Source: Clostridia bacterium (GTDB lineage: Bacteria > Bacillota > Clostridia > Oscillospirales > CAG-272). From it: DNA of 48,285 nucleotides. Shown here one piece after another: positions 11,011 to 33,400 of the stretch. The DNA lies in contig JAFQDK010000037.1 in the NCBI GenBank assembly GCA_017399305.1, positions 67,777 through 116,061 on the forward strand, read 5' to 3'. The notes beneath the pieces were generated by a model. The model did no database searches, was not told the DNA's origin, and saw only the letters and a list, made by a program, of their open reading frames with translations. Numbering within the stretch: position 1 is the stretch's first letter; each line of letters begins with the position of its first letter. The translations under genes and the position numbers were made by a program.

Positions 11011-11771
11011 TATTTGATATCTGACATTATTTTTTCGTCAAGACTTTCGGATACTACAGCATTTGACGCTTTTACCATGTTTTCAGCTTCCTTGACAGAT
11101 GGCAGTGCATGCTCTGTCAGGTTGCCTGCATTTGTCTGTTTTACAAGCAATCCATTTTTCTTTGCAAAAAGCACAAACACCGCTGCTATGGCAAGAAGCA
11201 GTACCGAAAATACAAGGTAATACCAACTGTTGCTCTGTGACTCCATAACAAGATTCTCATCCGTAAAACCAATCTCCAATGTAGTTACAGGCGACTTGCT
11301 ATATTCAATCTCAAAGATATCACCGTATTTGTTCTTTAACTCCTCAATCATTGCGATAGTTTCGGGGTCGTTTTGTCTGTCCTCTAAAATACCAAGGTCT
11401 ATCTCATTCTCCATTTCGTCAAGCGCCGACCACACAAGTCCGATTTGCTTTTCAAAATATGGCAGTAATTCTTCCTGCACCTTGGCAAGTTCGTTTCTGC
11501 TGATTTTCTGATATACAATGGTGACAGTAGCATCATTCTCAATCATATTCAGTATCTCTTGTTTTCCGGCTTCGCCATCTTCGTTATCGAGCACTGCAAA
11601 TGTGAGATTCTCCATGCTTCCGTCGGTTGACCATACGCCGCAGACATATGACGGATATTCACCTTGCCACGACTGATAAAGGTCATTAGCTGTAGAATAT
11701 GTCGGCTCCTCCTGTGCAAAGCATGAAATTGCAAACAGCATTATCATTAAAACGATTATTATTTTTTTCAT
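11010..11771 (-). CDS. Single-pass membrane protein, probable partner of the ECF sigma factor
   Basis: A 253-residue protein: signal peptide (1-20), an exported domain of about 155 residues rich in acidic helices, one membrane helix at about 180-200, and a cytoplasmic tail of about 50 residues. I prefer the ATG at 11771 to that at 11774 because AGGAGG is then 6 bases away. The ATG overlaps the stop of the sigma gene by one base, so the two are coupled. The position suggests an anti-sigma factor or sensor; however, no zinc anti-sigma motif is present and the cytoplasmic part is at the C-terminus, the reverse of the usual anti-sigma layout. The anti-sigma role is inference. Confidence 0.65.
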   Translation of the reverse strand: MKKIIIVLMIMLFAISCFAQEEPTYSTANDLYQSWQGEYPSYVCGVWSTDGSMENLTFAVLDNEDGEAGKQEILNMIENDATVTIVYQKISRNELAKVQEELLPYFEKQIGLVWSALDEMENEIDLGILEDRQNDPETIAMIEELKNKYGDIFEIEYSKSPVTTLEIGFTDENLVMESQSNSWYYLVFSVLLLAIAAVFVLFAKKNGLLVKQTNAGNLTEHALPSVKEAENMVKASNAVVSESLDEKIMSDIK

Positions 11772-12274
11772 CATGTTCCTCCTAAGTATTCCCGCAAAGC
11801 TGTAATTGCTTTACGGTATTTACGATATGTAGCAGGAAGCGAAAGCCCAACGATACGTGCTATTTGGGAAAATCCAAGCGAGCCGTTCAAATGCAATGAC
11901 AGAATCTCACGCTCGTCACACGGAAGTTTGCCTATCGCAGTTTCAACATCCATGCGAGTTATAATGCCGGCGAGCGCATCTTCGGCAGGCTGCTGCACAT
12001 CGTCAAGGTTTACGCTTTGCTTTGCCCGAAGCGCATCAATAGACAGATTACGCGTCATCTGAAATACCCATGCCCTCGGATTTCTGACAGTGGGTTCAGG
12101 CGGAGATGCAAACAGCTTGACAAAAACATCATGCGTGATGTCCTCGGCTACCTCCCTTGATTGCACTATGCGACAAGCAATAGTAAACACCGGAGTTTTC
12201 AGTTCATTGTATATGTATTTGAACGCTTCTTTGTCGCCGCCGCGCACTCTTGAAAAGTATTCTTTGATTTCCAT
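11771..12274 (-). CDS. ECF-type RNA polymerase sigma factor
   Basis: A 167-residue sigma-70 family protein of the ECF type. Region 2 is at about 10-80 (DKEAFKYIYNE, DITHDVFVKLF, PRAWVFQMTRNLSID) and region 4 at about 105-160 (LPCDEREILSLHL, then a helix-turn-helix around FSQIARIVGLSLPATYRKYR). The start MEIKEYF at 12274 is preferred to 12292 because the GGGGGAG encoded in the first codons of the longer frame is then the ribosome binding site. It is transcribed from the promoter region shared with the antiporter gene and is coupled to the membrane protein downstream. The regulon is unknown. Confidence 0.9.
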   Translation of the reverse strand: MEIKEYFSRVRGGDKEAFKYIYNELKTPVFTIACRIVQSREVAEDITHDVFVKLFASPPEPTVRNPRAWVFQMTRNLSIDALRAKQSVNLDDVQQPAEDALAGIITRMDVETAIGKLPCDEREILSLHLNGSLGFSQIARIVGLSLPATYRKYRKAITALREYLGGT

Positions 12275-12347
12275 GCCATCTCCCCCTTTCATTTACTATG
12301 ACGATTTAAAAAGCTGATTTTTTCGCTCGGAATGAAAATTTTTCTTT

Positions 12348-12391
12348 ATTATACCATAGATGTAGACATTTATCTCAGAAAATGGTATAAT
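12348..12391. promoter_or_regulatory. Mirror-image divergent promoter region
   Basis: A perfect 10-bp inverted repeat (ATTATACCAT / ATGGTATAAT, 24-base spacer) whose arms contain the -10 elements of both divergent genes. Plus strand (antiporter): TAGACA at 12363-12368, 17 bases, TATAAT at 12386-12391. Minus strand (sigma gene): TATAAT at 12348-12353, with no clear -35. Confidence 0.7.
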
Positions 12392-12422
12392 CCATATGAT
12401 TTTGATTTAAAGGAATGACATT

Positions 12423-13739
12423 ATGAAAAAAGGAAATCCATTTGCCCTTTTGCCTATAGGCGTTTTTCTTGTACTTTATCTTGGGCTTGGGCTGATATTT
12501 GAATACGCACTTAAAATACCGATGGGCTTTTACAATGTCCCGATAGTAGTAGCCTTTCTATGTGCGCTACTGACCGCGTGTATTCAAAACAAAAAACTCT
12601 CGTTTGACGAAAAACTTGAAATAATGGGACGCGGTATCGGCGACAAGAACATTGTAACAATGATTCTCATATTCTTAGCCGCCGGAATCTTTGTCGGCGT
12701 GGTCGGTCGCAGCAGTGCGGAAAGTGTTGCATACTTTATGCTCTCTATTGTACCTGCACGTTTTGCAGTAGCGGTACTGTTTATCGTAAGCTGTTTTGTT
12801 TCTGTTGCTATGGGGACATCAGTCGGAACTATCACGCTTATCGCGCCGATTGCCGTTGCTGTATCAAATGCAACAGAATTCAACATGCCACTGTGCATAG
12901 CATCTGTAATAGGCGGCTCAATGTTTGGCGACAACCTCTCATTTATCTCTGACACAACTATTGCGGCATGCAACGGTCAGGGATGCCAGATGAAGGACAA
13001 GTTCCGTGAAAACTTTTTAATAGCTCTGCCTGCAGCAATAGCTACTGTTGTGCTTATCCTTGTTTTCTCAGCGCAGACAGATGTATCTGGTACAGTTGCA
13101 AAAGAGTACGACCTTATAAAGACTATTCCGTACATCCTTGTTTTGTTTGGCGGAATAATCGGCATCAACGTTTTTGTAATTCTGCTTATCGGAATCATCT
13201 CCGGTTCAATAATCACACTTATAGTAGGCGGTACAACGTTTCCAGCCCTTACAGCCGGCATGGGTGCCGGTGCGGCAGGTATGTTTGAAACCATACTAGT
13301 TGCTGTTCTTGTTGCGGCAGTATGCGCTCTCATACGTGAGTACGGCGGATTTGACAGTATACTGTACGCCGTCAAAAAAATTTTCAAAGGTAAAAAAAGC
13401 GGTCAGCTTGGAATGGGGCTTCTTGTTGGCGCTATGGACATAGCAACCGCCAACAATACCGTTGCTATAGTAATGGCAAACCCGATTGCCAAAGATATGT
13501 CAAAGGAATACGGCATTTCCCCAAAGAAATCAGCTTCGTTGCTTGACACTTTCTCCTGCATTTTCCAAGGCATTATACCGTACGGCGCACAAATGCTTGT
13601 TGCAATCTCTACGGTTTCTGAACTTGGTACAAGCCTCAGCGCATTTGAGATACTTCCATATCTCTTTTATCCCGCAATGCTGCTTGTCAGCTCACTGATT
13701 TTCATCTATATAATTCCAGACAAAAAGACGGCTGATTAA
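12423..13739 (+). CDS. NhaC-family Na+/H+ antiporter
   Basis: A 438-residue polytopic membrane protein with about 11-12 hydrophobic segments. Conserved features of the NhaC family are present, including GTSVGTITLIAPIA (about 131-144), the GGSMFGDNLSFISDTTIAA stretch with charged D and S/T residues in a membrane segment (about 163-181), and a later NNTVAIVMANPIA segment. It should exchange Na+ for protons, or an organic anion pair such as malate/lactate in related members, across the cytoplasmic membrane. RBS AAAGGA lies about 9 bases before the ATG. The promoter at 12363-12391 is close to consensus, and the gene stands alone. Confidence 0.9.
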   Translation: MKKGNPFALLPIGVFLVLYLGLGLIFEYALKIPMGFYNVPIVVAFLCALLTACIQNKKLSFDEKLEIMGRGIGDKNIVTMILIFLAAGIFVGVVGRSSAESVAYFMLSIVPARFAVAVLFIVSCFVSVAMGTSVGTITLIAPIAVAVSNATEFNMPLCIASVIGGSMFGDNLSFISDTTIAACNGQGCQMKDKFRENFLIALPAAIATVVLILVFSAQTDVSGTVAKEYDLIKTIPYILVLFGGIIGINVFVILLIGIISGSIITLIVGGTTFPALTAGMGAGAAGMFETILVAVLVAAVCALIREYGGFDSILYAVKKIFKGKKSGQLGMGLLVGAMDIATANNTVAIVMANPIAKDMSKEYGISPKKSASLLDTFSCIFQGIIPYGAQMLVAISTVSELGTSLSAFEILPYLFYPAMLLVSSLIFIYIIPDKKTAD

Positions 13740-13751
13740 GCCGTCTTTTTT
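13723..13751. terminator. Bidirectional terminator between antiporter and the SPFH-AAA operon
   Basis: AAAAGACGGC / GCCGTCTTTT stem with a 7-base loop that includes the antiporter stop codon; A- and T-runs on both sides. Confidence 0.9.
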
Positions 13752-13757
13752 ATCTTA

Positions 13758-15473
13758 TTAGATTTGATGAAGCTCGTTTGTAATACGCTCATAATATGAA
13801 TCGTACTCATCCAATTCTTTCTGATACTGTTTAAACTGGGCAAACAGTTTTTGCATAACTGCGCTTGTAGACTTGATGCTTTCGGCGCACTTCTGTTCAA
13901 GCTGCTTCTTCTCTCCACTATTAGATATAAGTTTATATATACCGTATACTGCCCCACCGAAGGTAGCAACAAGCAATCCCATATGCACAAATAATGCCGC
14001 AACGAGCGCCGCAACGCCAATGCCAAAGCCGACAAATGCAGGCCAACTCTTGATAGTTGACATCGCCGCATTCTTCTTATCGGTGAAGTGCTTGTTTATC
14101 TTCTGATATTCCTCATCCTCACGCTTGAAGTTTGCAGTGGTTGAGTATTCACCTATGCTAATAGGATAATTTGCTTTTCTCTTTGCCCTATAGCTCTCAA
14201 CATGACGATCAACCGCTTTTTCCTGAATTGCTTTTGTCAGGGTAAACATACTGAGTTTAATCTGTCCGTTAACATCCTGTGAATCTCTTTCATATATCCA
14301 GTCAATCATCTCAGCAACAAGATTGAGATCATCAGCTTTTTTCTCCTGCTCGGCAGCGAATTGAGCTTTTGCCGCTTCAACATCACCCTCATACTTTATG
14401 ACAAGGTTATTGTAAGCAATCTCATCATATGTTTCTTTTTCAGCCGCATTAGGAGCATCGACAAGTTCATCAATGAAATTCTTAAGGAAAGTATTCTTCT
14501 CTTCTACAGGCACATTAACCGTCTTCAAAACGAACTCAAGAATATTGATATTATTCTTTGCCTGCATCATAAGATTAGTCAACTGTTCAAACTCGGAGCA
14601 ATGCTTTCTGAGAAGTGCATACTCAAGCTGATCCGATGGCTGCATTCTGTTGAAATATGCCCTGATATGATCGACGATATCATCCTCATTATATCCGGAT
14701 GCCGCCATGTTTTGCTGAATAACTTTTTTGATAAACGAGAAAACTTCGTTTCTTGTCTTATCATCAACATTATCGGCTATCGTCTTGCTGACAAGGGAAA
14801 ACAGCATAAGGAATGTGCGCTGGTCACTACCCTTAAGCCCGCACTCCTGATATGTATAAAACCACTTCAGTGCCGCTTCTTCTCTGCCCATTCTGAGATT
14901 AAACAGCATATAGAAAATAGCACTGCTCTTTTTGTCAAGCTTAACCGCGCGAGCCATAGCACGATCAGCAAGCTCTTTATCATCATTGCGCCATGCCATA
15001 ATGCTGATAAGTACACAGGTCAGCCAATAATCAGGTGTCTGAAGATGCTGAACTTCTACAGACTTGGTAATAGTCTTGTTGCTGACCATCTGCACATCAA
15101 GATTATCCATTATACCCTGCACGATTTTTCTCACAGTGCGATAATTGGAAAAATCATAATACTTTTTATTATTGCACGCTCTGATTTTTTTGTTTGCAAG
15201 TTCAACGTTCTTAAACTTGACATACAAACGCTCTATCTCGCCTTGCAGTGCAATTGAATCAATAGTGCGCTGATGCGATGAAACCATTCTGCCATTGGAA
15301 TTGTCAAGCGAGTTGCGGATCTGAGCATTGTAATTTTCAAGAGTTCTGTCCGCTTGACTTACTCCGGCTGCAATAGTATTCAATTCACCACGCAGTTCCG
15401 CATTAATTTGTTGTGCCCGTCTTAACTCTGCTTCAAGCGCGTTAAGCTGGCTTTGCAATGCGTAATTACTCAT
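13758..15473 (-). CDS. Coiled-coil/TPR-like membrane-hairpin protein, paralogue A
   Basis: A 571-residue protein, last gene of the nine-gene operon. An N-terminal coiled coil (about 5-100) precedes a helical core with TPR-like spacing (about 115-400) that is shared with the genes at 17697 and 19319: PDYWL at about residue 147, then NLRMGREEAALKWF at about 192. A WIYERDSQDVNGQIK segment matches the W-x-x-x-D-x-SQ-x-DV motif of the paralogues. Near the C-terminus are two adjacent hydrophobic helices (about 473-515) and a final coiled coil of about 50 residues. With no signal peptide, both ends should be cytoplasmic and the protein tethered by a membrane hairpin. ATGA overlap with the AAA+ gene and AGGAGG 9 bases before the start point to coupled expression with that ATPase. 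No known family was recognised. Confidence 0.85.
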   Translation of the reverse strand: MSNYALQSQLNALEAELRRAQQINAELRGELNTIAAGVSQADRTLENYNAQIRNSLDNSNGRMVSSHQRTIDSIALQGEIERLYVKFKNVELANKKIRACNNKKYYDFSNYRTVRKIVQGIMDNLDVQMVSNKTITKSVEVQHLQTPDYWLTCVLISIMAWRNDDKELADRAMARAVKLDKKSSAIFYMLFNLRMGREEAALKWFYTYQECGLKGSDQRTFLMLFSLVSKTIADNVDDKTRNEVFSFIKKVIQQNMAASGYNEDDIVDHIRAYFNRMQPSDQLEYALLRKHCSEFEQLTNLMMQAKNNINILEFVLKTVNVPVEEKNTFLKNFIDELVDAPNAAEKETYDEIAYNNLVIKYEGDVEAAKAQFAAEQEKKADDLNLVAEMIDWIYERDSQDVNGQIKLSMFTLTKAIQEKAVDRHVESYRAKRKANYPISIGEYSTTANFKREDEEYQKINKHFTDKKNAAMSTIKSWPAFVGFGIGVAALVAALFVHMGLLVATFGGAVYGIYKLISNSGEKKQLEQKCAESIKSTSAVMQKLFAQFKQYQKELDEYDSYYERITNELHQI

Positions 15474-16981
15474 TTTACGATACCTCCTGATTTACTCGAT
15501 GCTGCAACAGCTCTTTCAATGCCCCACTCTCTTATCTTTTCCACGCTGTCCGGATTGGATTTTGAGATGGGAATGAGTTTATTAAACTGCTGTAACAACA
15601 ATTCCTGCGTTACAACAGGCTGCCCTTTTATCAAAGCCAACTGCGCAATATCTTTTATAACATACTCGATATCCGAATATGAAAATCCTTCCGATGCATC
15701 AACAAGTTGACGCATCTCCTCATCGCTGATATCAATATGCAATGCCTTGGAAGAATACTGCTCTATCGTGGCCTTTCGCTCTGCGGCATTAGGTAAATCA
15801 ACAAAAAATATTTCTGAGAAACGTCCTTTTCTGAACAGCTCATACGGCAGAAGTGAAATATCATTCGCCGTTGCTACTAAAAACACACGGCTTTTCGATT
15901 CCTGCAGCCAGAACAAAAACTGTCCAAGAACGCGCTTGCCTGTATCGTTGCCAGAGTCGGATACCGACAATGCTTTCTCAATTTCATCAACCCATACAAC
16001 ACAGGGTGAAACATTATCTATGAATTGGAGCGCTTCTTTCATCTTCTTTTCGCTTTCTCCAACCCACTTATCATAAATAGTGCCAAGATCAAACCTAAAC
16101 AGCGGCAGATCCCATTCTTTTGCAACCATCTTTGCAGATAAAGATTTTCCGCAACCGGGTACACCGGCAAGCAAAATGCCCTTCGGTGTTGTCAAATCAC
16201 GCGCATTTAATGCATCATCAGATGCAAAGAATACCGACTTTTTTTCACTGAGCCACGCCTTGAGATTATCAAGACCTGCCACGGTCAATGCACGGTTCAC
16301 ATTTACCATCTGGATGCTTGCGACGGCAGAATAAAGCTTGCTCTTCTGATCTGTCAGCTCGAAAAGATGTTCTTTACTAAGCTTTCTCTTGCTGACAAGC
16401 GTTGTTGACAGTATATTATCTATCTGTATTTCAGAAAAGCCCCTCAGCAATGTTGCTGCCATTCTGATATCATCTTTATCCCACTCAATCGTATACTTAC
16501 CGCCAAACATATTTATAAATGCGTTTATCTGAGATATTCGCTCATCCATATCCGGGTACTCAAGTGTAGTAAGCATGCCGAACTGTGAAAGACGTGACCA
16601 AACGGTATCTGCGGTAATTAAAATGAGTGTGCAATTCGTTTCTTTAGCGAGATACAGTATGTTAAGCACTTCGCGGCTGTAAACATTATCCTCGCCTATA
16701 CGCTTGATATCTCCGACCGCGAAAGTAGAATTGCGATTCTTTTTAAACTGAGCTGCAATAAAGCCGAGCGGATCGTTATCTACATCCTGCTTTATGTCAC
16801 CGTTAAAGGTGCACACCTGCTTTGAATCTGTGTAATAGTTTATGCCGATATTAAGTTCGCTTGAGATTTCCTTCAGCATTCGCTCTACACGCTCGCGCTC
16901 TGATGAATCAACAATAATAAGCGGAGTTCTTGCGCATATGTAGTTTTTTATCTCTGCCTTTGTAGAAACATAATTGCCCAT
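15470..16981 (-). CDS. Ycf46-type AAA+ ATPase
   Basis: A 503-residue cytoplasmic ATPase. Residues 1-235 match the N-terminal half of Ycf46-like proteins (ARTPLIIVDSSERERVERML near 17-36, a degenerate nucleotide-binding-like domain). The C-terminal AAA+ module has Walker A GVPGCGKS (273-280), Walker B VVWVDE (328-333), a WVGESE pore-loop-like segment (306-311), sensor 1 ATAND (370-374), and arginine finger region FRKGRF (383-388). The second-region alpha-helical lid lies at about 400-470. Such ATPases remodel or disassemble protein complexes. The adjacent membrane coiled-coil genes (ATGA overlap with paralogue A, 14 bases from the helical protein) are the obvious substrate candidates. The family call is strong; the substrate is inference. 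Confidence 0.92.
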   Translation of the reverse strand: MGNYVSTKAEIKNYICARTPLIIVDSSERERVERMLKEISSELNIGINYYTDSKQVCTFNGDIKQDVDNDPLGFIAAQFKKNRNSTFAVGDIKRIGEDNVYSREVLNILYLAKETNCTLILITADTVWSRLSQFGMLTTLEYPDMDERISQINAFINMFGGKYTIEWDKDDIRMAATLLRGFSEIQIDNILSTTLVSKRKLSKEHLFELTDQKSKLYSAVASIQMVNVNRALTVAGLDNLKAWLSEKKSVFFASDDALNARDLTTPKGILLAGVPGCGKSLSAKMVAKEWDLPLFRFDLGTIYDKWVGESEKKMKEALQFIDNVSPCVVWVDEIEKALSVSDSGNDTGKRVLGQFLFWLQESKSRVFLVATANDISLLPYELFRKGRFSEIFFVDLPNAAERKATIEQYSSKALHIDISDEEMRQLVDASEGFSYSDIEYVIKDIAQLALIKGQPVVTQELLLQQFNKLIPISKSNPDSVEKIREWGIERAVAASSKSGGIVK

Positions 16982-16995
16982 TTTCTCACCTGTAC

Positions 16996-17493
16996 TTAAA
17001 AAAGATGGATGCGTTTTATCAAAAACAAAACATCTTCAAGATCGGAATTTAAAAACTCCAACGATTGGTCATGCAAAAAGCCGACCGTATCATTCCAAAA
17101 TCTTGTCATTTGCGTTTTTACCGACTCGGAAAGCTCTGTCCGAAAGTTTTGGGGAAGAAAGAACAGATTCTCAAAAAACAACGTATTGTTTACATCGTTT
17201 TTAAACCGCCTGAACAAAACATTTATCTGCAAAAGTTCATTGAATGATATGCACTCGTTAACATCGCGGATAAACCGTTTTGCACTTCTGTCAAGAACTG
17301 CATTTACAGTTTCAACTAACTGCTTTTGCAAAGCAACAGCAGTTGCTTCACTTCCGCAGAATGTTCCGGTACTTGCCGCGGCAAATGCTTTGTCACGCGA
17401 GGTGCGATTGCCTTTCATCATTAAAAAGCAATCAAGCCACTCCTGATATGTAGTCGGAGATTTTACATCTGTCCGTTCTGCTAAAATACTCAT
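16996..17493 (-). CDS. Helical protein of unknown function
   Basis: A 165-residue soluble protein predicted to be almost all alpha-helical, with no cysteine pairs, membrane segment or recognised motif. The start ATG overlaps the stop of the 59-residue gene (ATGA) and has no clear Shine-Dalgarno of its own, so it is translated by coupling. It ends 14 bases before the AAA+ gene. Being fixed between a small protein and the ATPase suggests an adaptor or subunit for it, which is inference only. Confidence 0.7.
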   Translation of the reverse strand: MSILAERTDVKSPTTYQEWLDCFLMMKGNRTSRDKAFAAASTGTFCGSEATAVALQKQLVETVNAVLDRSAKRFIRDVNECISFNELLQINVLFRRFKNDVNNTLFFENLFFLPQNFRTELSESVKTQMTRFWNDTVGFLHDQSLEFLNSDLEDVLFLIKRIHLF

Positions 17494-17669
17494 TTAAGGA
17501 AGCTATACGGAGGTTCAAGGCTCCAGTCGGGAAGCTTTTTGCTCATTTCCTTAAGACGCTCATCGGAAATTTCGACACCGCCGCCTGCCGGAGTTGCAAA
17601 ATTCTCACGAATACGCTGTTCCATCATCTGTTCAAAGTCCATATCCTGATTCTTATTCTCGTTACTCAT
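17490..17669 (-). CDS. Small protein of 59 residues
   Basis: A short gene reading MSNENKNQDMDFEQMMEQ... and ending ...PPYSFLK, 59 residues, with AAAGGAG 8 bases before the ATG and an ATGA overlap with the following gene. The protein is highly charged, with an amphipathic first half, a GGG turn and a C-terminal helix ending in a Trp/Pro/Tyr patch (DWSLEPPYSF). No family was recognised. It lies 27 bases after paralogue B. Good ribosome binding and tight spacing make it a real gene despite its size. Confidence 0.75.
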   Translation of the reverse strand: MSNENKNQDMDFEQMMEQRIRENFATPAGGGVEISDERLKEMSKKLPDWSLEPPYSFLK

Positions 17670-17696
17670 GGTTATTCTCCTTTAGATAGATAAGTA

Positions 17697-19298
17697 TTAA
17701 AGAAACTCTACGTTGCTGAGAAGTTCATCCTTCTTTGCACGGTTCTCATCAAAATAACGCTTAAACTCGGCAATTTCGCCCATACATGCATTAAGATTGT
17801 CAATTGCGGCTTTAATGCGCTTGGGATACGCTTTGAGCGCCTTAAGCACTCTGAATACAAGAAATCCTGCAGACAAAGCGGTGACGATAAGCGAATACAA
17901 TGTTACAAACGCAAGTCCTGCCGATGCGATAAACAGAATAACTGCAAGCATATTTGGTGTATTTACAAACATATTCTGGAATTTATTGTTTTCAAAGTGA
18001 TTCTTTATGCTCTGAACCTGCTCAGCCTGATCTGCACCATTGCTGGTACCACTCCATGTGTCAATATGCAGTTTGTATTCGTGCGGAAATTCATCCTGAA
18101 GCTTTCCGTCAAAGTTATTGACAGCTCCCTTGAACCATGTTTTGGTATTCTGGAATCCGAATTTTCTTACCTGTACATCGGTCTGGTCGCTATCATCATA
18201 GATAGCCCATTTTATCATCTGTTTACCGATGTTGAAGCGCTCGTTCTGGAGTTCTTCCATTGCTTGATACTGAGCTTCTGCTTGCTCAATAACACCATCG
18301 TTTTCAACGATGCAACGATAATACTCCTGCTCCATCTTGAGTTCAAGCTCTTCTGCGTCATAATTGGAGATAAGATTCATCAGAATAGCATCTACTCTGC
18401 TCTTGTAATTCTCATCATCCTGCGGTTCTGCCTCAACGTCAAGTGACTTTATAAAGTCAAGCAAAAGGTCAAACTTTGATACATCTTTATATGCCTTTTC
18501 AAGCTGACTTGCATTGGAGCAATACTTCAGGATCGACTGATAGCTAAACTTAACGGGCGCATTGAGATTTGCTATATATGTTTCATATCCGTCGAGAAGT
18601 TCATTTGAAATCTCTTCGTTTTCATTGATAATAGAAATCCATTCGTCAATGAGTTCAATAACTTCATGCTCAAGCTCTTTGTCCTTGCCAAAGATACCGT
18701 TCAAGAAGGACTGAAGAAGAATTGCCGTTTCCTGCTGAAGCATTGTAGGATCAAGTGTCTTGAAATACTCATAGAACCACTTTTTTGCCGCATCCATTCT
18801 GCCGAAGCGAAGATTCATAAGACAGAAGAAAAGTGTTGTCTTGATAGCATCTTTTCTGCCGCTCTCTGCAAGCGCATTCTTTGCAACTTCGGGATAATTG
18901 TTTACCCAAGCTGTAATTGCAATAAGTGCATATGAAAGCCAATATCTTGAGCTTGTTATCCACAGTTCCTCAGAAAGTTCCTGAATGGTGCTGTTTCTGA
19001 CAAGATTGATATCAAAATCACGCACAACGCCCATAACCGTACGGCGAATTGCAACGTGATTGCTGAACTGCTCTTTGATGAGCTGGTCTATTCTCAGGAT
19101 GTTCTCATGCGCAATCTGCTTCTGCTCACCGTGAAGCATATTGGTCTTGAACGCCTCGATATTTCTATATATCTCATTGGTTGTAGCTTGTATACTTGCC
19201 GTAGACGCGTTTACATCGTTGACCTTTACGTCTACTCTTGATTTAAAAGAATTAATAGTTTGGTTAAGACTATTAATTGCTTGTGAAGCACTAGACAT
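17697..19298 (-). CDS. Coiled-coil/TPR-like membrane-hairpin protein, paralogue B
   Basis: A 533-residue protein of the same build as paralogues A and C: an N-terminal coiled coil (about 1-75), a helical core with RYWLSYALIAITAW and NLRFGRMDAAKKWF (about 115-175), the segment WAIYDDSDQTDVQVRKFGF (about 350-370), two adjacent membrane helices (about 445-485), and a C-terminal coiled coil. There is no signal peptide, so both ends should be cytoplasmic. GGAGG lies 10 bases before the ATG. It begins 20 bases after paralogue C and is followed by the 59-residue gene. Function unknown. Confidence 0.85.
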   Translation of the reverse strand: MSSASQAINSLNQTINSFKSRVDVKVNDVNASTASIQATTNEIYRNIEAFKTNMLHGEQKQIAHENILRIDQLIKEQFSNHVAIRRTVMGVVRDFDINLVRNSTIQELSEELWITSSRYWLSYALIAITAWVNNYPEVAKNALAESGRKDAIKTTLFFCLMNLRFGRMDAAKKWFYEYFKTLDPTMLQQETAILLQSFLNGIFGKDKELEHEVIELIDEWISIINENEEISNELLDGYETYIANLNAPVKFSYQSILKYCSNASQLEKAYKDVSKFDLLLDFIKSLDVEAEPQDDENYKSRVDAILMNLISNYDAEELELKMEQEYYRCIVENDGVIEQAEAQYQAMEELQNERFNIGKQMIKWAIYDDSDQTDVQVRKFGFQNTKTWFKGAVNNFDGKLQDEFPHEYKLHIDTWSGTSNGADQAEQVQSIKNHFENNKFQNMFVNTPNMLAVILFIASAGLAFVTLYSLIVTALSAGFLVFRVLKALKAYPKRIKAAIDNLNACMGEIAEFKRYFDENRAKKDELLSNVEFL

Positions 19299-19318
19299 AC
19301 CTTACTTTCCTCCGTTTA

Positions 19319-21067
19319 TTAAAATCTTTCAATCGCATTTAACAGATCTGCGTGTTTAGCATCTGCTTCTTTATATGCAGTTCTCCACTGCGAAAGCTCA
19401 TCAAGAGCCTGTTTAAGAAGCAATTTACTCTTTCGTTTCTTTTCCTTGAGTATCTTGCCAAGGTCAACAATTCTGCGCCAGAGCAAAAAACTGCCGGTAA
19501 GACCGACCAGTATGCCAATTGTAAGAATTATGGGCGAGAAATATGCAAAAAGCACTAATATGAGAAGTAATGACAATCCGCAAAGTCCTGTATAAAGAAG
19601 AACCTGCTTATCATTGAAAATATTCTTGAGTTTGTTCTTGTCGTAATACTTTTCAACCTGTTTTTCGGCCTCAGAATAGCCATTCTCGTCACATGTCAGA
19701 TTGCAACCATCAATATCGAATGAACACTTTTCGCATTCCTTCTCTCTGTACCGTGTGGCGAACTGTTCAAAGCCCTTGATAATTGATTCTTTCATAAGTG
19801 AAAGCGAAAATCTCTTGACTGAAACATCGGTCTGCGACATGTCATCGGCAAACGCCCATGACAAAAGCAGGTCGCCAAGGTTCTTCTTTTTCTTGCTGTC
19901 GGCAAACATCGCATCATAATTAGCTTTTGCCAAAGCAACATCGCCCCTTGCACGGACAATCGCTTCATTGTACTTGATGTTCTGTACTACTTTCAGCTCG
20001 TCACTGTCATAGTCATTAACAAGTGCGTAAAGCACATTTTCGATTCTCTGCGGCAATTCAACTTCCGCTTCGCTCTCTGCCTCGGCAATATCGTCATAGT
20101 ACTTAGCTATCTCCGCATTCTTCTCAGCGGTAGACAAAAGCGTCATAAGCTCGGGGTATTCTTTACAAGTGCGTCCCAGGATTGTATACTCATATCTCGT
20201 CTTATGAACATAAAGTTCTGCAAACTCAATAGCCTTTTGAGTAAACTTCTTGGCAAAATCAACAGTAGACACTTCAACCTGTGCCATCATACTCTGGAAG
20301 CACTTTGCAACAGTTTCCTGAAACTCTTCGTCTGCACCGAAAGCACCAAACAAATATGCCTGAAGCAAATACTGCCACTCGTCACCAAGATTGTTCATAT
20401 CGGCTCTGTCAAGATAATTGACATACCATTTCTTTGCCGCATCTACTCTATTGAAACGAAGATTGATAAGCAAATAGAATAAACAAGAATTAAAGTAGTC
20501 GATAGACAAGCTCTTGCTCATCGCTCTCTGCGCGGCTTCTTTTTCATTGCTGGACCAAAGCATTACAGCAGAGATACAATATGCAAGCCAGTATTCAGTA
20601 TTCTGAAGGTACGCCTTTTCTACCTTCTTTCTCATGGTTTCGCTGCTGATAATGTTGGCATCAAGTCCTACAACAAAGCCAAGTGAGATTCTTCTAAGGT
20701 CATTGTAATACGAGAATTTTGTAAAATACTCATCGTTATACTGCGTAACATTCTTTGAAGCTGTAGACAAGCTCTTGAATGAAAAGTATTGAACTGTAAG
20801 CTCTTTCAATGCCTGGTAAACTTCTTTGGTGCTTATATCAGCTTGTCCGACGAATCCGGATAGATAACCCATTTCTTCATAAACAGCTTTATCCATTTCG
20901 CCGCAATTGCTGATAAGAATGCGTACATTTTGAAGCGCTATCTCAAGTTCGGCTTCAAGCTGTGCATTCTCTTGATTGGTGTAATTTATTCTGTTAATTA
21001 CATCATTGATTTGTCTTCTTAATCGTTCCGCTTCGGCTTGTTCCGCACGGTATTCCTCTTCAGTCAC
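19319..21067 (-). CDS. Coiled-coil/TPR-like membrane-hairpin protein, paralogue C
   Basis: A 582-residue protein that starts at GTG (AGGAGG 9 bases upstream; no ATG is suitably placed). It has an N-terminal coiled coil (about 1-65), a core with EYWLAYCISAVMLW and NLRFNRVDAAKKWY, and a WAFADDMSQTDVSVKRFSL segment, all shared with paralogues A and B. Unlike those it has a short cysteine cluster before the membrane hairpin (CEKC, then C, then C within about 16 residues) that could bind a metal. Two hydrophobic helices (about 488-530) and a basic coiled coil end the protein. Function unknown. Confidence 0.85.
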   Translation of the reverse strand: MTEEEYRAEQAEAERLRRQINDVINRINYTNQENAQLEAELEIALQNVRILISNCGEMDKAVYEEMGYLSGFVGQADISTKEVYQALKELTVQYFSFKSLSTASKNVTQYNDEYFTKFSYYNDLRRISLGFVVGLDANIISSETMRKKVEKAYLQNTEYWLAYCISAVMLWSSNEKEAAQRAMSKSLSIDYFNSCLFYLLINLRFNRVDAAKKWYVNYLDRADMNNLGDEWQYLLQAYLFGAFGADEEFQETVAKCFQSMMAQVEVSTVDFAKKFTQKAIEFAELYVHKTRYEYTILGRTCKEYPELMTLLSTAEKNAEIAKYYDDIAEAESEAEVELPQRIENVLYALVNDYDSDELKVVQNIKYNEAIVRARGDVALAKANYDAMFADSKKKKNLGDLLLSWAFADDMSQTDVSVKRFSLSLMKESIIKGFEQFATRYREKECEKCSFDIDGCNLTCDENGYSEAEKQVEKYYDKNKLKNIFNDKQVLLYTGLCGLSLLLILVLFAYFSPIILTIGILVGLTGSFLLWRRIVDLGKILKEKKRKSKLLLKQALDELSQWRTAYKEADAKHADLLNAIERF

Positions 21068-21136
21068 GACAGAAAACCTCCTTTATTCAGTATTGCAAGT
21101 CTAAGTTTAGCTTGCCATGCTATAAATGTTAATGCT

Positions 21137-23131
21137 TTAAAACAGCATTGAATATACTTTATACTTTTCGCAAATAGCATTTGTGGTGCTGCCAAGGCTA
21201 CCCTTGTTGGCAACAACATATTTCTTCAGCTTCATCACCGAACCCGAAACATTCATTTCTTCATTAATCTTTATTTTCTGTCTGCTGACAAGCTCATCTG
21301 CAATTTCAAACGCAGTTGCAAGCTCATCATCGGTGATAAGCAAGTATGCCTGCAACAAATTGCAGGTTATATCGTTGCCAAGATGAGAAACCTGACAAGT
21401 AATGTTTGCAGCCACACAGGACGAAAGCTCCAGAAGTGTTTTAAAATTCTGCGCCTTTATCGCCGCGCGATCCTTAAAGTCAAGCAAATAGTTTTCAATC
21501 GCTATCGCACTGAACGAACTTGCAGGAGTAAAAACAAGTGCAAACAGTTCGGAGCTGAATTCCTCAGCCTCGGTCTTCTCGAGATAAAGATTTGCGGCAT
21601 CGCTTCTCATCTGCGCACCATTGCTCAACATTTTGTTGATAAACTTAATCTTATACTGAACCTCATCGTCAGATTCACAGATATAATCCACAAAAGATTG
21701 CGGATCAATTCTAAGTCCGATCTTAGAAAGCACATCTATAACTTCTGCCCTGACCTCCGATGTATCTATATCGGAATTCATGTACTTTGACAAAAGGTCG
21801 TTGAAGAAGCTTGTATTAAGCCCTTTATCAAACATCTGACTGATAATATTCGGCTTTTCGCTACCGTCTGCATCACACTTCAAAACATATGTTTCGACAG
21901 TTGCAGTAGGGAAAGTAACGGCTTTATCAAAGAGACATGCAAGTATATCTTTTCTTACTGTAGGATCATCTGTGTTATGGCACAGATATGTCGCAACCAC
22001 TGATTCAAACGCCTTGTTCTCAAGTTTAAATTCAAAAGCGGTCTTGAGTAATGTAATCTTTTCCTGAGTGGAATAGCGACTTTCAGAAAGCAACGCTGTG
22101 AGATACTTTGCAGGAACTATAACGTACTGGTTAGTATCCTTAAGACAGGTGAGTGCCGCCATAGCAACATCAATTTTGCCGCAATCAAATGCAAATGACA
22201 GAATCCGAAGAGTTTCTTCATCATTTAGATTTGATTTACAAACGCAGGACAACACGCTCTTTGTCTGCTCGGCATCTGCTTTACACAGCACAGTATTTAT
22301 AATCATTTCAACGCCGATTCTTATACCCGAATCGAGTGTGGATATCAGAATCAGCGCTTTGGTAGTAGCGGAATCGTCGGAAGAATTAAGATAATTCTCA
22401 ATGACGGGCTTGCCGTCATCCTTAAGATGCCCTGTTGCAAGCAGTTTTGCGGCATTACCGCCTTTCTGCTCATTATCAGGATACTTGTTAAGTATCTCTC
22501 CAATGGCAATATGTACATCCAGATTGTCGGTATTTGCGATAACCGCATCTGCAAGTTCTGTGTTGCCGTTCTTTAACGAATAGCTTAACAGATTGGAGTT
22601 TGCATACTTTGAATAGATCTCTTTTGCATCTACAAGCTGCAATACATAATCGCGCCTTGCCGTATCATTCAGCGAATCGTATACCAACAACAGGGTTGCA
22701 AAGATATCCGATTCCTCAAGGAACTCATACAAAGCTTCCTCTTCTTCGGTAACGGTTGTGCTTATCTCTCTTAACTGCTCATAATTCTTTTTGAGCTGAG
22801 AAAAAATGTTTCTTACATCTCTATCATCACACGCACCCGGCGTTATGACGCTGATCATCTCAAAAGCAATCTTTGCGATTAAAGTACCTATGTATCTCGA
22901 ATCGATCTTTTCGCACTCAACGAGATTCTTTTGTGCGCTGTCAAGTCTGCGATATGCAGTGTCCAAAAGAGATTGGCGAACAACATTTTTAATGGTAAAT
23001 AGGCCGTCATACTGCTCTTCGCGCTCTATCTCTGCGCCACAATACAGGCATTGCCATATTTTTTTCTCTTTAATGTACTGCAGCCTTCCGGCGCATTGAG
23101 TACATTTTCTTGCTACAAAACTCACTGCCAC
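21137..23131 (-). CDS. Zinc-ribbon protein with long helical-repeat region
   Basis: A 664-residue cytoplasmic protein. The N-terminus is a zinc ribbon (C10, C13, C28, C31; CTQC...CLYC). The rest is predicted helical with a repeat pattern typical of alpha-solenoids (TPR/HEAT-like), suitable as a scaffold. The start is GTG at 23131 with AAGGAG about 10 bases upstream; GTG is also the third codon, so the start is uncertain by two residues. It lies between the small membrane protein and paralogue C in the operon, with gaps of 21 and 69 bases. No catalytic motif was seen. Confidence 0.78.
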   Translation of the reverse strand: MAVSFVARKCTQCAGRLQYIKEKKIWQCLYCGAEIEREEQYDGLFTIKNVVRQSLLDTAYRRLDSAQKNLVECEKIDSRYIGTLIAKIAFEMISVITPGACDDRDVRNIFSQLKKNYEQLREISTTVTEEEEALYEFLEESDIFATLLLVYDSLNDTARRDYVLQLVDAKEIYSKYANSNLLSYSLKNGNTELADAVIANTDNLDVHIAIGEILNKYPDNEQKGGNAAKLLATGHLKDDGKPVIENYLNSSDDSATTKALILISTLDSGIRIGVEMIINTVLCKADAEQTKSVLSCVCKSNLNDEETLRILSFAFDCGKIDVAMAALTCLKDTNQYVIVPAKYLTALLSESRYSTQEKITLLKTAFEFKLENKAFESVVATYLCHNTDDPTVRKDILACLFDKAVTFPTATVETYVLKCDADGSEKPNIISQMFDKGLNTSFFNDLLSKYMNSDIDTSEVRAEVIDVLSKIGLRIDPQSFVDYICESDDEVQYKIKFINKMLSNGAQMRSDAANLYLEKTEAEEFSSELFALVFTPASSFSAIAIENYLLDFKDRAAIKAQNFKTLLELSSCVAANITCQVSHLGNDITCNLLQAYLLITDDELATAFEIADELVSRQKIKINEEMNVSGSVMKLKKYVVANKGSLGSTTNAICEKYKVYSMLF

Positions 23132-23152
23132 TGTGACGGGTCTCCTTTTGTT

Positions 23153-23848
23153 TTACTTGGAAATAGCAAGCTTTTTATTTCTCTCTACATAAAGTCTTTC
23201 GAGATCTGCACATGCCTGCTTTGCATCGTCTATCTGGTTATCATCAAGACAGATCTGAAGTTCAGAAACCTTTCTTGTGATTCTCTGCTCTACACTTGCG
23301 ATAGCTTCGTTTGACATGGGGTCAGAATACTTTACAGTTTCGGAAAGTTTTCTGAGAGCTACCTTGAGTTCGGGATCTGTGCATGAATCTCTCATCATTT
23401 CGATATCAACAAGCACAGACTTTAAATTAAATACATTTTCTTTTACTTTGTCGCTGATAGCCTGAACGGTATTAGCAGAAAGAACGGATATGATCGCAAT
23501 AATCAAAAATGCCGCAAGCAGAAGAATCTGAATGATAAGTGCAAGGGTGAAGCTTACCTGTTGGAAAATCATGAATACTGCACCGATAACAAGCTCGGCA
23601 CAGAGATAAAATACTGAAAAAGATGCAAGAGGTATCCCGAAAAATGCTGTTTCAACATCTGTCGGTACAAATGCAACAAACATGCTGACAATCTGCACAA
23701 CAAATGCAAATGTCATAAAGCCGTAGCTAAGCCAGAAAACGTCTGTACGTGTTTTAAAAATAGTAAATGTAAGAAGATTGAAAACGCCAAGAAGGATTGC
23801 ATAGATAAGACCTATGCCAACTGTATTTTTTACTTTAGTATTCTTCAT
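23153..23848 (-). CDS. Four-helix membrane protein with coiled-coil tail
   Basis: A 231-residue protein: four hydrophobic segments (about 10-32, 41-62, 72-94, 100-125), then a cytoplasmic helical tail of about 105 residues with coiled-coil character, ending in a charged KKLAISK stretch. AAGGAG lies 9 bases before the ATG. It is the second gene of the operon, 13 bases after the SPFH gene. Small membrane partners often accompany SPFH proteins (NfeD in other families), but this sequence does not look like NfeD. Function unknown. Confidence 0.75.
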   Translation of the reverse strand: MKNTKVKNTVGIGLIYAILLGVFNLLTFTIFKTRTDVFWLSYGFMTFAFVVQIVSMFVAFVPTDVETAFFGIPLASFSVFYLCAELVIGAVFMIFQQVSFTLALIIQILLLAAFLIIAIISVLSANTVQAISDKVKENVFNLKSVLVDIEMMRDSCTDPELKVALRKLSETVKYSDPMSNEAIASVEQRITRKVSELQICLDDNQIDDAKQACADLERLYVERNKKLAISK

Positions 23849-23861
23849 TTTTTATTACTCC

Positions 23862-25115
23862 TTAGATTTTTTGTCCGCATTCAAGGCAGAATTTTGCACC
23901 GGCAGGCAATGTTGAACCGCACGAGGGGCAAACATTGTTTATCTCAAATTTATGTCCACACTCAAGGCAGAACTTACCTTTTTGAACTGTTTTGCCACAT
24001 GCAGGGCAAACCACTGTGTCATCACTTGGAACTTCAACTTTTTCTCCGCAACTGAGGCAGAATTTAGCATTTTCAGGAAGATCACTGCCGCATTTCGCGC
24101 ACTTGCCGCTGCCTGCAATTGTGGGAGCTGTGCCTGCGCCACCCTGCGCAGGATTGAAGAAGCTGTTCACATCAATTCCGGTAGCACTTGATCCAACATG
24201 TGAACCTGTGCCATTTGCATCCTTGGGTGGGGTTGTTGTAGGAATGTTCTGGGGATCGAGCGCGCCTCTTGCGATTTCTGCAATAGTGCCGCCCATTGCG
24301 CCACCCATCATGAAGCCGCCCATCATGCCGCCCATTTCACCCATGGCGCCAGTGTTGCCGGCAAACTTTTCAGAAATCATCATCTGGCGTTCTTCCTGCC
24401 ATGTATAACCTTCGATCATTCGGCTGGTTCTACGCTCTTTTGCCTCGCTGACCTTTTGATAGTCTGCTTCGGGAACCTCAATAGTTTCAATATTGAAATA
24501 CTCGATTCTGATGCCATATTCTTCAAATACAACGTCAAGTTTTTCCTTGATAACGCCGCTGAGTTCAAACAGATGAGCATTCATCATGAAGTAACTGAGT
24601 TTACCGTTAATCATGATTTTAGAGATATAATCTTTTACATGAGAAGAAATAATGCCTCTGAACTTGCTGACAAGCGTGGTGGAATCAAATCTATCACGGA
24701 AACCCACAAGCTTGAGCATAAATTTGCGGGAATTGTCAACGGAAACAGACATACTGCCGTTTGCCATAACATGCATGAAAATATCATAAAGAGGATCCTC
24801 AAGTGCAATCGGTCCCTGGGTGCCCCAGAGAAGATCCATCTGATGTACTTTGTTTATGAAAAATACTTTGCAAGGGAACGGAGATTTTCCGTCTGTGGGA
24901 ATCTCAATAAGTTCTCTTGCCAAAGGAATATTGGGAACAGAGAGAGTTCTTCTGCCCGCGGTAAACAGGTCTGCGGCATTGCCGTTTACAACCAGCAGCG
25001 CTTCGTGTGTTTCATCAACGATGAGCTGTGATGTAGCATTAAAGTCTTCAACCGGGAACTTCCAGACTAAATCGTCTTGTTTTCCTTCAAATTTAATTAC
25101 TTCTGCAATTGCCAT
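23862..25115 (-). CDS. SPFH-domain protein with three C-terminal zinc ribbons, YdjI-like
   Basis: A 417-residue protein, first gene of the operon. Residues about 25-215 are an SPFH/virion-core-like domain of the YdjI family (N-terminal LVWKFP, VDETHEALLVVNG, and LDVVFEEYGIRIEYFNIETI before the end). A charged helix (about 216-245) and a Gly/Met-rich segment (about 250-275) follow, then a linker and three zinc ribbons (CAKCG...CLSCG, CPACG...CLECG, CPSCG...CLECG; about 339-417). No membrane helix is present, so it must be recruited to the membrane by partners. In Bacillus YdjI is held there by YdjG and YdjH and connects PspA to the membrane; YdjG/H-like genes exist at 1266-3147. AAAGGAG lies 9 bases before the ATG. 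Family call firm, role inferred. Confidence 0.9.
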   Translation of the reverse strand: MAIAEVIKFEGKQDDLVWKFPVEDFNATSQLIVDETHEALLVVNGNAADLFTAGRRTLSVPNIPLARELIEIPTDGKSPFPCKVFFINKVHQMDLLWGTQGPIALEDPLYDIFMHVMANGSMSVSVDNSRKFMLKLVGFRDRFDSTTLVSKFRGIISSHVKDYISKIMINGKLSYFMMNAHLFELSGVIKEKLDVVFEEYGIRIEYFNIETIEVPEADYQKVSEAKERRTSRMIEGYTWQEERQMMISEKFAGNTGAMGEMGGMMGGFMMGGAMGGTIAEIARGALDPQNIPTTTPPKDANGTGSHVGSSATGIDVNSFFNPAQGGAGTAPTIAGSGKCAKCGSDLPENAKFCLSCGEKVEVPSDDTVVCPACGKTVQKGKFCLECGHKFEINNVCPSCGSTLPAGAKFCLECGQKI

Positions 25116-25322: not shown

Positions 25323-25351
25323 ATTATAGCATGATTTTGTAGCAATGTCAA
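25323..25351 (-). promoter_or_regulatory. Sigma-A promoter of the SPFH-AAA operon
   Basis: On the minus strand TTGACA (25346-25351), a 17-base spacer and TATAAT (25323-25328): both hexamers are consensus. Between 25352 and 25506 I see no gene, only AT-rich sequence with two micro-frames of fewer than ten codons. Confidence 0.9.
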
Positions 25352-30449: not shown

Positions 30450-33400
30450 ATGAAAAAATACCTTCTGATTATTTGTATGATCATTCTATTGTCAATAGGT
30501 GCTTCGGCGGCCACCGTCTATGTATCGGACGGCGGCACAGGCGACGGTGCGTCCTCTTCTGCCCCGCTCGGCTCACTCACCGATGCATACACGGCACTTG
30601 GAAGTGACGGTGGCGAAATCGTTATTGTTGGCACTGTTACAATTCCTGTAAACAAGGGAGACACCACACGTACTGCCTTTGTCGAGCCTTCTCATAGCGG
30701 TAAAATAACAGTACGCGGCTATAACAGTTCCGCAAAAATGCTTTTTGCTTCTCCGTATGAATACCATATGAGCGGCGAAACAGAAATCAAGAATATTATT
30801 ATCTCCTCAGGTTCTTACACAAGCGGTATCAGCATCTGTGCTCGCGGTCACCACCTCACAATGGGTGACGGAATTACAATGCACTCTACAGGTACTGTAG
30901 GCAGCACAACTCAGATAGGTACCAAGGTGTACCTCCACGGCGGATGCATACCAAATGCAACTGTTGAAGGTTATCTTGAATGTAACAATCATCTTACCGT
31001 AAAAAGCGGTACATACTGGGGAATTATCGGATTTAACCGTGGCTTGAATGTAACCACCACAGGAAGCTCGAAAATTGAAGTTGGCGGTGATGTAAGCACA
31101 CATTATCTTATTGCAGGTTCTTCGGGCTCTTGTAATTTTGCGTCCCCTGCTTCATCTGAAATTTACATAATCGGCGACCTTACTGTTACACAGCAGATCT
31201 CTCTCGGAAACCAGAACAGTGATGTCTCTTCGTTTGACTCAAACCTTATCGTGCTTGACGGTGTAGTAGATTTTACCGAAAATTTCATTGACTACACCGC
31301 GCGCAAGCGTATGACTACTCTCGACATCTACTATGATGATGCATCAACTACTGCCAAGACCTCTTTTGAAACTTACTTCAAGGGTTACGGTGACCGCGAG
31401 GGTACGCTTGCCGCTTATTGTGTAAACGAGCTTGGCGGACATACCTTTAAAAACAATAATTGTACCCGTTGTGGCGCAATTAAAGCGATTGAAAACGCAG
31501 ATATTGTATATGTAACAGACGGCGGCGCGGGCACCGGTGCAAGCGCTGCTTCCCCGCTTGGTTCACTCACCGATGCATATGCAGCACTCGGAAGTGACGG
31601 CGGCGAAATCGTAATTGTTGACACTGTTACAGTTCCCGTAAACAAGGGAGACACCACACGTACTGCATTTGTTGAGCCTGCCCACAGCGGCAAAGTAACT
31701 GTACGCGGCAATGACGATAGTGCAGTAATGCTTTTCGCTTCTCCATATGAATATCACATGAGCGGCGAGACTGAAATCAAGGATATCACAATATCCTCCG
31801 GCGCTTATGTAAAAGGTATCAGCATCTGCGCACGCGGTCACCACCTGACAATGGGTGACGGAATTACAATGCACTCTACAGGCACTGTAAGCGGTACAAC
31901 TCAGATTGGCACCAAGGTTTACCTCCATGGCGGATGCATTCCAAATGCTACCGTAGATGGCTACCTTGATTGCAACAACCACCTTACCGTAAAAAGCGGT
32001 ATATACTGGGGAATCATAGGATTTAACCGTGGTTTGAATGTTTCAACTACGGGCAAGGCTACGATTGAGGTTGGCGGTGATGTAAGCACACACTATCTTG
32101 TTGCAGGTTCTTCAGGTACTTCAGGATTTGAAGGTGAAGCCGGTGCAACTATCCGCATCATAGGCGATCTTAATGTAACTCAGCAGATCTCACTCGGCAA
32201 CCAGAATACCCGTCCCAAAGCATTTTCTGCAGTCGTTATCGTAGAAAACGGAAATGTCAATATGACAGGTACACTCGTAGACTTTTCTGCACGTACACGT
32301 CTTACCGATCTTGCAATATATGTAAATCCCGAGTCTGAAAGTGCTGTTCTTTCCTACAACCGCCTTTTTGCAGGATACGGCGACCGTGAAGGCACTATCT
32401 CGGATTACTGCACAAATGAGCTTTCGGGACACAGCTTCGCAAACGGTGTATGCACAGTTTGCGGCACCGACGGTGAAATTTGCGATACACACAGTTTTAC
32501 TGAAAGTGTTAGCGGAACTATAACAACAAAGATATGTTCTGTATGTGGCTTTACTGTAAAAACCACCACAAAAACTAATTCTGTAAACGGTGTGTATACA
32601 CATACTGTAGGCAATGTCCGTGTACAAATACTCTCTGACGGCATCGTGCGCACTGAAGAAAAATTTGAAAACACATTTACCGATGTGCCTACACTTATCG
32701 TGCCTGACCGTACCGTATTTACCGGAACTGCAGTAACGGTTGACGAGGACATGGACACCGTTATCCTTGCTACAGAGAAATTTACTGTAAATATTCCGAA
32801 AAACGGAACTGCAACCGATGTTCTCATTTTTGATGCCGACGGAAAGCTTCTCTACGATTACTACTCCGCAGATAAAGTGGCGATGTATTCTTCTCTCCCT
32901 GCACCAAGTGACACTCCTGATGCATATGCCGTTATCGACAATGGAATTCTCCCTGCAGATGGCGGTCTTACCTACACCGGTAGCGAAGATGACACAAGCG
33001 ATTGGGAAAGAACAGACAATACCGACATCTATATCCTGCTCCCGCTTGGTGATGCCGTTGCTCTTCGTAAACAGTTTATCACCTTAACAGGACCTACTAT
33101 GATGTCAAGCATAAAAACACTTGGCTCATGGTACTCAAAATGGACAAGGTACTCCGGTGAGGAACGCCTTGCACTCATTAAAGAATTCCGCACCCGCGGC
33201 ATTCCGCTTGACGTACTGATAATTGACACCGAGTGGAAGGCATCCAGCACCAACGGAAACGACGGTGACGGTACAGGATATGACACGAATGATGAGCTTT
33301 ACCCGGATATGCCCGGATTCCTTACCAAAGCGGAAGCGGCTGGTGTATATGTACTCTTTAATGACCATACTCACAGTACCACAGATCTCATAACCACTCC

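Follow-up and report, generated by a model that had tools for sequence, protein, structure and literature searches.

The DNA analysed here, a stretch of 48,285 nucleotides from a Clostridia bacterium (assembly GCA_017399305.1, contig JAFQDK010000037.1, positions 67,777 to 116,061) which is referred to as the window, carries a minus-strand operon of nine open reading frames (ORFs), read from the sequence at 13758-25115. We propose that this operon encodes an undescribed membrane-tethered AAA+ remodelling machine, placed by a module of an SPFH protein, a four-transmembrane-helix protein and a zinc-ribbon protein, and that the system is accessory and horizontally spread; the probability that we attach to this reading is roughly 0.42, somewhat short of even odds. 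What is directly observed is the gene content and its conservation, the hydrophobic hairpins, the intact ATPase motifs and the natural joining of one conserved tail to a hairpin protein. The gene order is SPFH-memB-ZnHEAT-P1-P2-small-g165-AAA-P3, where P1 to P3 are membrane-hairpin paralogues and the labels are our own. Searches of the nine window proteins against Pfam, NCBIfam, PADLOC and PHROGs gave confident matches only for the SPFH/zinc-ribbon protein and the AAA+ ATPase. The first-pass annotation of this DNA had known of no described system with such a gene set, and none was found in the literature searched, the coverage of which excludes preprints and most subscription papers.

Dispersal of these genes in related genomes had been named in that annotation as an observation that would tell against it; the comparison was run and the grouping survived. 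Member loci number 71 (L149-L203 and L206, a pair of viral contigs, 12 loci detected through P, and the window itself), and since the scan of named genomes with the ATPase alignment kept the best 80 loci, the counts are not frequencies; fair counts are those taken by discovery gene, 58 loci having been found by the ATPase and 12 by P. P and g165 are also present in 54 of the 58, the four exceptions being L185, L200, L206 (ATPase at contig start) and L194, and 9 of the 12 found by P also hold g165 and AAA. All three genes occur in 64/71 loci, and the order P-(small)-g165-AAA, with an undetected small protein allowed, is seen in 62/71 with a median gap of 11 bases. The nine exceptions to this order are L155, L157, L185, L200, L206 (ATPase at contig start), L194, where the ATPase stands alone and has a very long branch in the ATPase tree, and L064, L066 and L067, which are without g165 and AAA. 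The full nine-gene order is present in eight of the 71 loci, one of them in Bifidobacterium vansinderenii, which belongs to another phylum; other window-type loci are cut by the end of the locus or contig (L150, L152, L155, L157) or contain inserted genes (L043, L150, L152), and in genome G429 (L043) SPFH and memB are present upstream once longer sequence is taken. P, g165 and a further protein, MPKP (see below), are absent from all 102 other loci (78 viral and 24 generic ATPase relatives); the ATPase found 80 viral loci, of which two hold P and 78 do not, and a search of viral contigs for P with A1 gave none.

The paralogues themselves are P1 (19319..21067, minus strand, 582 amino acids, GTG start), P2 (17697..19298, minus strand, 533 amino acids) and P3 (13758..15473, minus strand, 571 amino acids). 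They are 24-26% identical to one another, with pairwise BLASTP E-values of 8e-53, 1e-37 and 8e-39, and each has a C-terminal hydrophobic hairpin, which bears out the earlier description of three paralogues with a membrane hairpin. A hydrophobic segment lies within the last 30% of all 85 P proteins of at least 480 residues, and in 82/85 it is large enough for a hairpin, with either two segments or no fewer than 38 residues; the central part of P is conserved and matches no known family. When 68 P proteins were compared with Pfam and NCBIfam, only scattered weak matches and nothing convincing were returned, the commonest Pfam match being PF20990 (5/68, best E 1.1e-5), and a match to Reprolysin_5 on P1 (E 0.095) was below cut-off; the paralogues can accordingly still be placed outside known families, as far as the libraries searched are concerned. 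In a tree of P proteins, P1, P2 and P3 each form a single clade across 11 loci (support 99, 100 and 100), and the triplication therefore looks old. That every copy has stayed at its own position within the operon argues for three distinct, fixed and non-interchangeable subunits.

The classical AAA+ ATPase (15470..16981, minus strand, 503 amino acids; PF00004, E 1.2e-28) has an N-terminal domain of about 230 residues followed by an AAA module with a Walker A motif (273), a pore loop DKWVGES (304), a Walker B motif (328) and an arginine finger RKGRF (384). Among 65 system ATPases, the pore loop is kept in 61, Walker A in 64, Walker B in 63 and RxGRF in 62, and the presence of these substrate-threading motifs agrees with the earlier assignment to the remodelling type. 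The closest solved relatives of the AAA module are VCP/Cdc48-type modules, and the closest PHROGs family is phrog_8638 (E 4.5e-90, residues 110-496), the function of which is not known. The label ‘Ycf46-type’ is presumably appropriate for the ATPase, although no library returned this family name. Generic relatives (L204-L228, from Cyanobacteria, Nitrospira and others) share near-full-length similarity, mostly at 29-33% identity, and the tblastn matches of most of them span approximately residues 10-495. In the ATPase tree, 64 system ATPases are separated from 16 generic relatives by a branch with support of 100, and 13 window-type ATPases, including the copy from B. vansinderenii, group together (87).

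Between P2 and the ATPase lie two short genes. The small protein (17490..17669, minus strand, 59 amino acids) ends in LPDWSLEPPYSFLK, and a motif PxW[DSN][LIV]xP[PTSAK] is found within the last 40 residues of 56/57 homologous small proteins, 50 of them with the strict PP form; the exception, from L069, carries a related stretch at residue 38 and, after it, a zinc ribbon. Elsewhere, by either form of the motif, it occurs in one of 6990 other ORFs of the loci, and this sole occurrence is the C-terminus of the P protein of L174 (L174:7720-9567), a locus in which a separate small protein was not seen. This P with its tail motif looks like a natural fusion, which ties the tail to P. The second gene, g165 (16996..17493, minus strand, 165 amino acids), was judged by eye from its sequence to be helical; aligned with 51 homologues from other loci it has an invariant Y16 and W19, and the 52 members gave scattered weak Pfam matches, none of them convincing.

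Three genes at the head of the operon make up the membrane module of the window's form. The SPFH protein (23862..25115, minus strand, 417 amino acids) belongs to Band_7_1 (PF13421, E 2e-33; 116.2 bits against a cut-off of 24) and has C-terminal zinc ribbons (DZR/Zn_Ribbon_1). Next to it, memB (23153..23848, minus strand, 231 amino acids) has by hydropathy about four membrane helices and a soluble tail of about 100 residues; it matches no Pfam or NCBIfam family above cut-off, and it lies beside SPFH or ZnHEAT in 11 other loci. ZnHEAT (21137..23131, minus strand, 664 amino acids) has an N-terminal zinc ribbon, as seen from the cysteine pairs at the N-terminus of its homologues, and a long remainder; no Pfam family matched it above cut-off and ‘HEAT’ is a mere label, taken from a chance-level match (E 0.13). 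SPFH and memB adjoin P in L066 and L067, from the near-complete genomes G797 and G605, which hold P and the small protein with no g165 or AAA adjoining and in which there was no full-length AAA match, only general AAA-module matches; P, the small protein and SPFH-memB can therefore stand without this ATPase. By analogy with YdjI of Bacillus subtilis, and from the presence of SPFH-memB beside P in these two genomes, which have no system-type ATPase, the SPFH protein might organise the site. Some 10 kb ahead of the window, the operon's contig carries a second Band_7_1 (SPFH) gene (C31:57692-58363; L234:7162-8517), whose gene context differs.

The operon is compact and has recognisable boundaries. 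Its gaps measure 13, 21, 69, 20, 27, -4, 14 and -4 bases, so that the nine minus-strand genes described in the first-pass annotation, with gaps of 69 bases or less, are all seen, although two 4-base ATGA overlaps were counted where it had reported three short overlaps. A GGAG-type stretch, identified by eye, precedes seven of the nine starts, the exceptions being g165 and AAA. Upstream of the SPFH gene there is indeed a consensus promoter-like site of the sigma-70 type (25323..25351, minus strand; TTGACA-17-TATAAT with an extended -10 TG), which leaves a leader of about 200 bases and is the sole site to score 12/12 among 44 matches in 14 kb, where the shuffled expectation is 32 matches. A terminator-like hairpin of 12 pairs (13722..13750) lies between the operon and a convergent gene and was flagged by the scan for the plus strand only, and a terminator-like hairpin with 17 pairs, at 25548-25507, marks the end of the upstream gene. 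The G+C content of the operon is 41.2%, against 44.3% in the left flank and 46.5% in the right.

A commoner form of the system, in 38 loci, consists of P, the small protein, g165 and AAA with a fifth protein, MPKP, an uncharacterised Cys/His protein. In an alignment of 29 MPKP sequences, one C, two H and one E are invariant; no solved relative was found by sequence, the one member compared with Pfam had no match, and MPKP was not found in five genomes: G429, G373, G797, G605 and the window's own, which is incomplete. In loci with MPKP, a basic tail R[RK]x?[VI] is present in the last 14 residues of 37/47 ATPases, 23/46 P proteins and 22/45 g165 proteins, compared with 0/15, 0/40 and 0/13, respectively, in loci without it and 18/599 among other genes; the small proteins do not follow this pattern (5/36 with MPKP, 2/6 without). 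These counts use matches at E <1e-30, include a few fragments and one FtsH-like ATPase, and draw P from up to three paralogues per locus, which are not independent. Eight loci were dropped from them: L155, L194, L200, L201, L206 and L063, which are partial or broken, and L185 and L202, where the upstream part is off the contig and the tail is present in g165. As the pattern was defined after the tails had been viewed and the loci are related, Fisher values are descriptive only. A processing or receptor role for MPKP is our guess. A broader proposal, tentative and more doubtful than secure, is that of a widespread, undescribed class of bacterial membrane machines, in records of six phyla, whose non-ESCRT hairpin subunits would be remodelled by a dedicated AAA+ ATPase; in the commoner form, MPKP would recognise or process the basic C-terminal tail (R-R/K-x-V/I) of P, g165 and the ATPase, those tails are likewise absent from loci without MPKP, and the window's form has the SPFH/four-transmembrane/zinc-ribbon module instead.

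Members are spread thinly. The P profile matched 6/394 genomes of the order, all strongly, 11/391 of the class (the window's genome and six others strongly, and four weakly at E 1e-5 to 1e-3, which are probably chance matches) and 3/299 of the phylum (a strong match and a weak one besides the window's genome). Among 97 relatives, the ATPase query found a near-full-length match only in the window's genome and in G066, where the gene lies among other genes, with no P in the 4.5 kb seen. Five other genomes of the same genus (53-84% complete) gave no full-length AAA match, and in none of the genomes of this genus were the two flanking genes found adjacent to each other, leaving no clean empty site. 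The Escherichia coli genomes gave no match to the L164 ATPase DNA. The member records come from Bacillota, Actinomycetota, Bacteroidota, Pseudomonadota, Mycoplasmatota and Vulcanimicrobiota; by their titles those of Bacteroidota, Mycoplasmatota and Vulcanimicrobiota are metagenome bins, for which a wrongly binned contig is possible, and the other three phyla include isolates.

Considering the likeness to known membrane-remodelling systems, PspA-YdjGHI of B. subtilis (ydjFGHI) similarly combines, in one operon, an SPFH protein with C-terminal zinc ribbons, membrane partners and a helical membrane-acting protein, as described in PMC11237479, and B. subtilis was among the control genomes carrying PF13421. 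According to PMC8581546, YdjI is required for localisation of PspA at the membrane, and PMC10936438 includes an SPFH/zinc-ribbon protein in archaeal Meth_adaptin ESCRT loci; these two links strengthen an ESCRT-like analogy. Unlike PspA-YdjGHI, the window operon adds a dedicated AAA+ ATPase, g165 and the small tail protein, P has its own hydrophobic hairpin, memB has no match to TPM, a feature of YdjH, in Pfam at E up to 0.5, and no PspA/ESCRT-III protein was found. Several membrane-associated paralogues beside a classical AAA+ ATPase also recall ESCRT-III/Vps4 and the archaeal Cdv system, from which the operon differs in that no sequence similarity of P to ESCRT-III was found and that the ATPase is without MIT or Vps4_C, neither of which is among the eight Pfam families listed at E up to 0.5; its score against the CdvC model is 93.9 bits, far under the cut-off of 650. 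Homology of P to ESCRT-III/PspA was rejected on sequence, the Pfam and PDB profile searches being negative: in Pfam at E up to 0.5, Snf7 and PspA_IM30 were absent from P1, P2 and P3 of the window, and of the 31 families matched at E up to 0.01 by 68 P members, the 25 listed include no ESCRT-III/PspA domain. On this point, too, the first-pass annotation stands, and the comparison with ESCRT-III/Vps4 is a reasonable analogy only. With Ycf46-type AAA+ proteins the ATPase shares an N-terminal domain and an AAA module matched over nearly the full length, but the system ATPases form a separate clade and the 24 generic loci are without P and g165. Lastly, the ATPase module matches the IetA models of the IetAS anti-phage system (PADLOC, best E 2.6e-33, residues 253-482) and also TRIP13; however, its N-terminal half lies outside the IetA match and no subtilase, the partner in IetAS, was found by Pfam in any of the nine operon proteins.

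In the mechanism that we envisage, the P proteins would assemble at the inner membrane into a helical scaffold, on which the small protein, a loosely folded accessory subunit, would dock by its PxW[DS]LxPP tail, with g165 serving as a putative adaptor. The AAA+ ring would thread or pull apart P subunits, or a client that they hold, and SPFH, memB and ZnHEAT would place the assembly at the membrane, comparable to the placing of PspA by YdjI and YdjG/H in B. subtilis, so that the machine may work in outline like ESCRT-III/Vps4 or PspA-type systems while being a member of neither. Several points weigh against this reading. The scaffold, docking and adaptor roles are guesses from sequence, and that P oligomerises and is the substrate of the ATPase is inferred. 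The P profile has weak matches in the PDB, the best being to designed helix bundles (E 0.0026), with another, over the hairpin, to alpha-pore-forming proteins (E 0.039). Most loci are without the SPFH module, which is therefore not essential to the core. Furthermore, the P and ATPase trees are quick searches in which several long branches were flagged, and absences in the window's own genome, such as that of PspA_IM30, are soft, as it is 63.7% complete.

Beyond the core, few neighbours recur, the most frequent family being the SPFH gene in nine loci. P is found on two plasmid records of Komagataeibacter nataicola (26 and 38 kb) and on a megaplasmid of Comamonas antarctica, and in the two of these three records that were opened genes of core size and order surround P. 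A satellite-phage record from Streptococcus has the core at its end, and in Streptococcus oralis a remnant of a satellite-phage integrase directly adjoins the core (L180:6907-7411). Carriage as satellite-phage cargo in S. oralis was considered and is ambiguous, one strain having the core at the same chromosomal site with no integrase match; the core may only neighbour the satellite's site. A HerA-like ATPase, identified as such by Pfam for the two proteins checked, lies inside or next to the cluster in five loci of both cluster types (895-1014 amino acids, and a further one truncated at the end of its locus). In the window-type operons L043 (2364-7792), L150 and L152 it stands before P1, and in L043 and L152 it is followed by two further proteins (731-932 and 170-346 amino acids). 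Downstream of the core of L069 (IMGVR_UViG_3300043178_000177), on the same strand at 11752-17367, there are a DnaJ/beta-helix protein, a Prok-E2_E protein, a ThiF-JAB fusion and an 840-residue protein. A ubiquitin-like link was set aside, being confined to L069; phmmer found no homologue of its Prok-E2_E and ThiF/JAB proteins in the other fetched loci, and the conjugation set is for that reason not counted as part of the system. Near the operon, the window also contains very large ORFs at 30450-35339 (1629 amino acids) and 38253-42239 (1328 amino acids).

These surroundings bear on a somewhat unlikely alternative, that of anti-phage or anti-plasmid defence, in which a membrane assembly would sense infection and the ATPase would drive the response. 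The core is rare, patchy and accessory, it lies in variable regions with mobile elements, and the plasmid records, the S. oralis integrase and the HerA-family ATPases would all suit such a role, but the S. oralis case is ambiguous, as seen above. Genes in the near flanks (128 of 143, the others having been dropped for length, shortness or near-duplication) matched 31 PADLOC models, with 14 different names among the 25 listed, against one model in 52 proteins around the generic relatives; however, distal genes of the same loci matched 46 models in 124 proteins (25 listed), which leaves no excess in the vicinity of the core. The counts are of models, not of distinct proteins, and are inflated by redundant models. 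The nine proteins themselves match no PADLOC system beyond the shared AAA module (IetA, TRIP13), apart from a marginal TniQ match (E 0.02).

The VCP/Cdc48-type modules with which the AAA module aligns best are segregases, and SPFH proteins are commonly linked to control of membrane proteases. This might suggest membrane-protein quality control or an assembly chaperone, with the AAA+ ATPase extracting or inserting membrane clients and P and SPFH as adaptors, yet rarity is ill-suited to a general chaperone and no extra gene family clusters with the core in more than nine loci, that one being the SPFH gene; we consider such a function unlikely. The HerA-like proteins could also point to an apparatus for macromolecule transfer or secretion, powered by HerA-like and AAA+ ATPases, and their occurrence in both cluster types would fit, but they are found in only five loci and no other large neighbour family recurs widely, which makes this very unlikely. 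Returning to the proposed membrane-tethered remodelling machine, its accessory nature and horizontal spread indicate that its role is probably conditional, as in envelope stress or attack by mobile elements, rather than housekeeping.

Whether or not this mechanism proves correct, there is a clear annotation gap: of the four to five genes conserved together in the core, three (P, g165 and MPKP) have no described family in the searches made. Members in named isolates such as S. oralis, Enterococcus caccae, Paenibacillus and Comamonas make the question testable at once. If the proposal is true, it would mean that bacteria of several phyla carry out AAA+-driven membrane remodelling on a scaffold unrelated in sequence to ESCRT-III or PspA.

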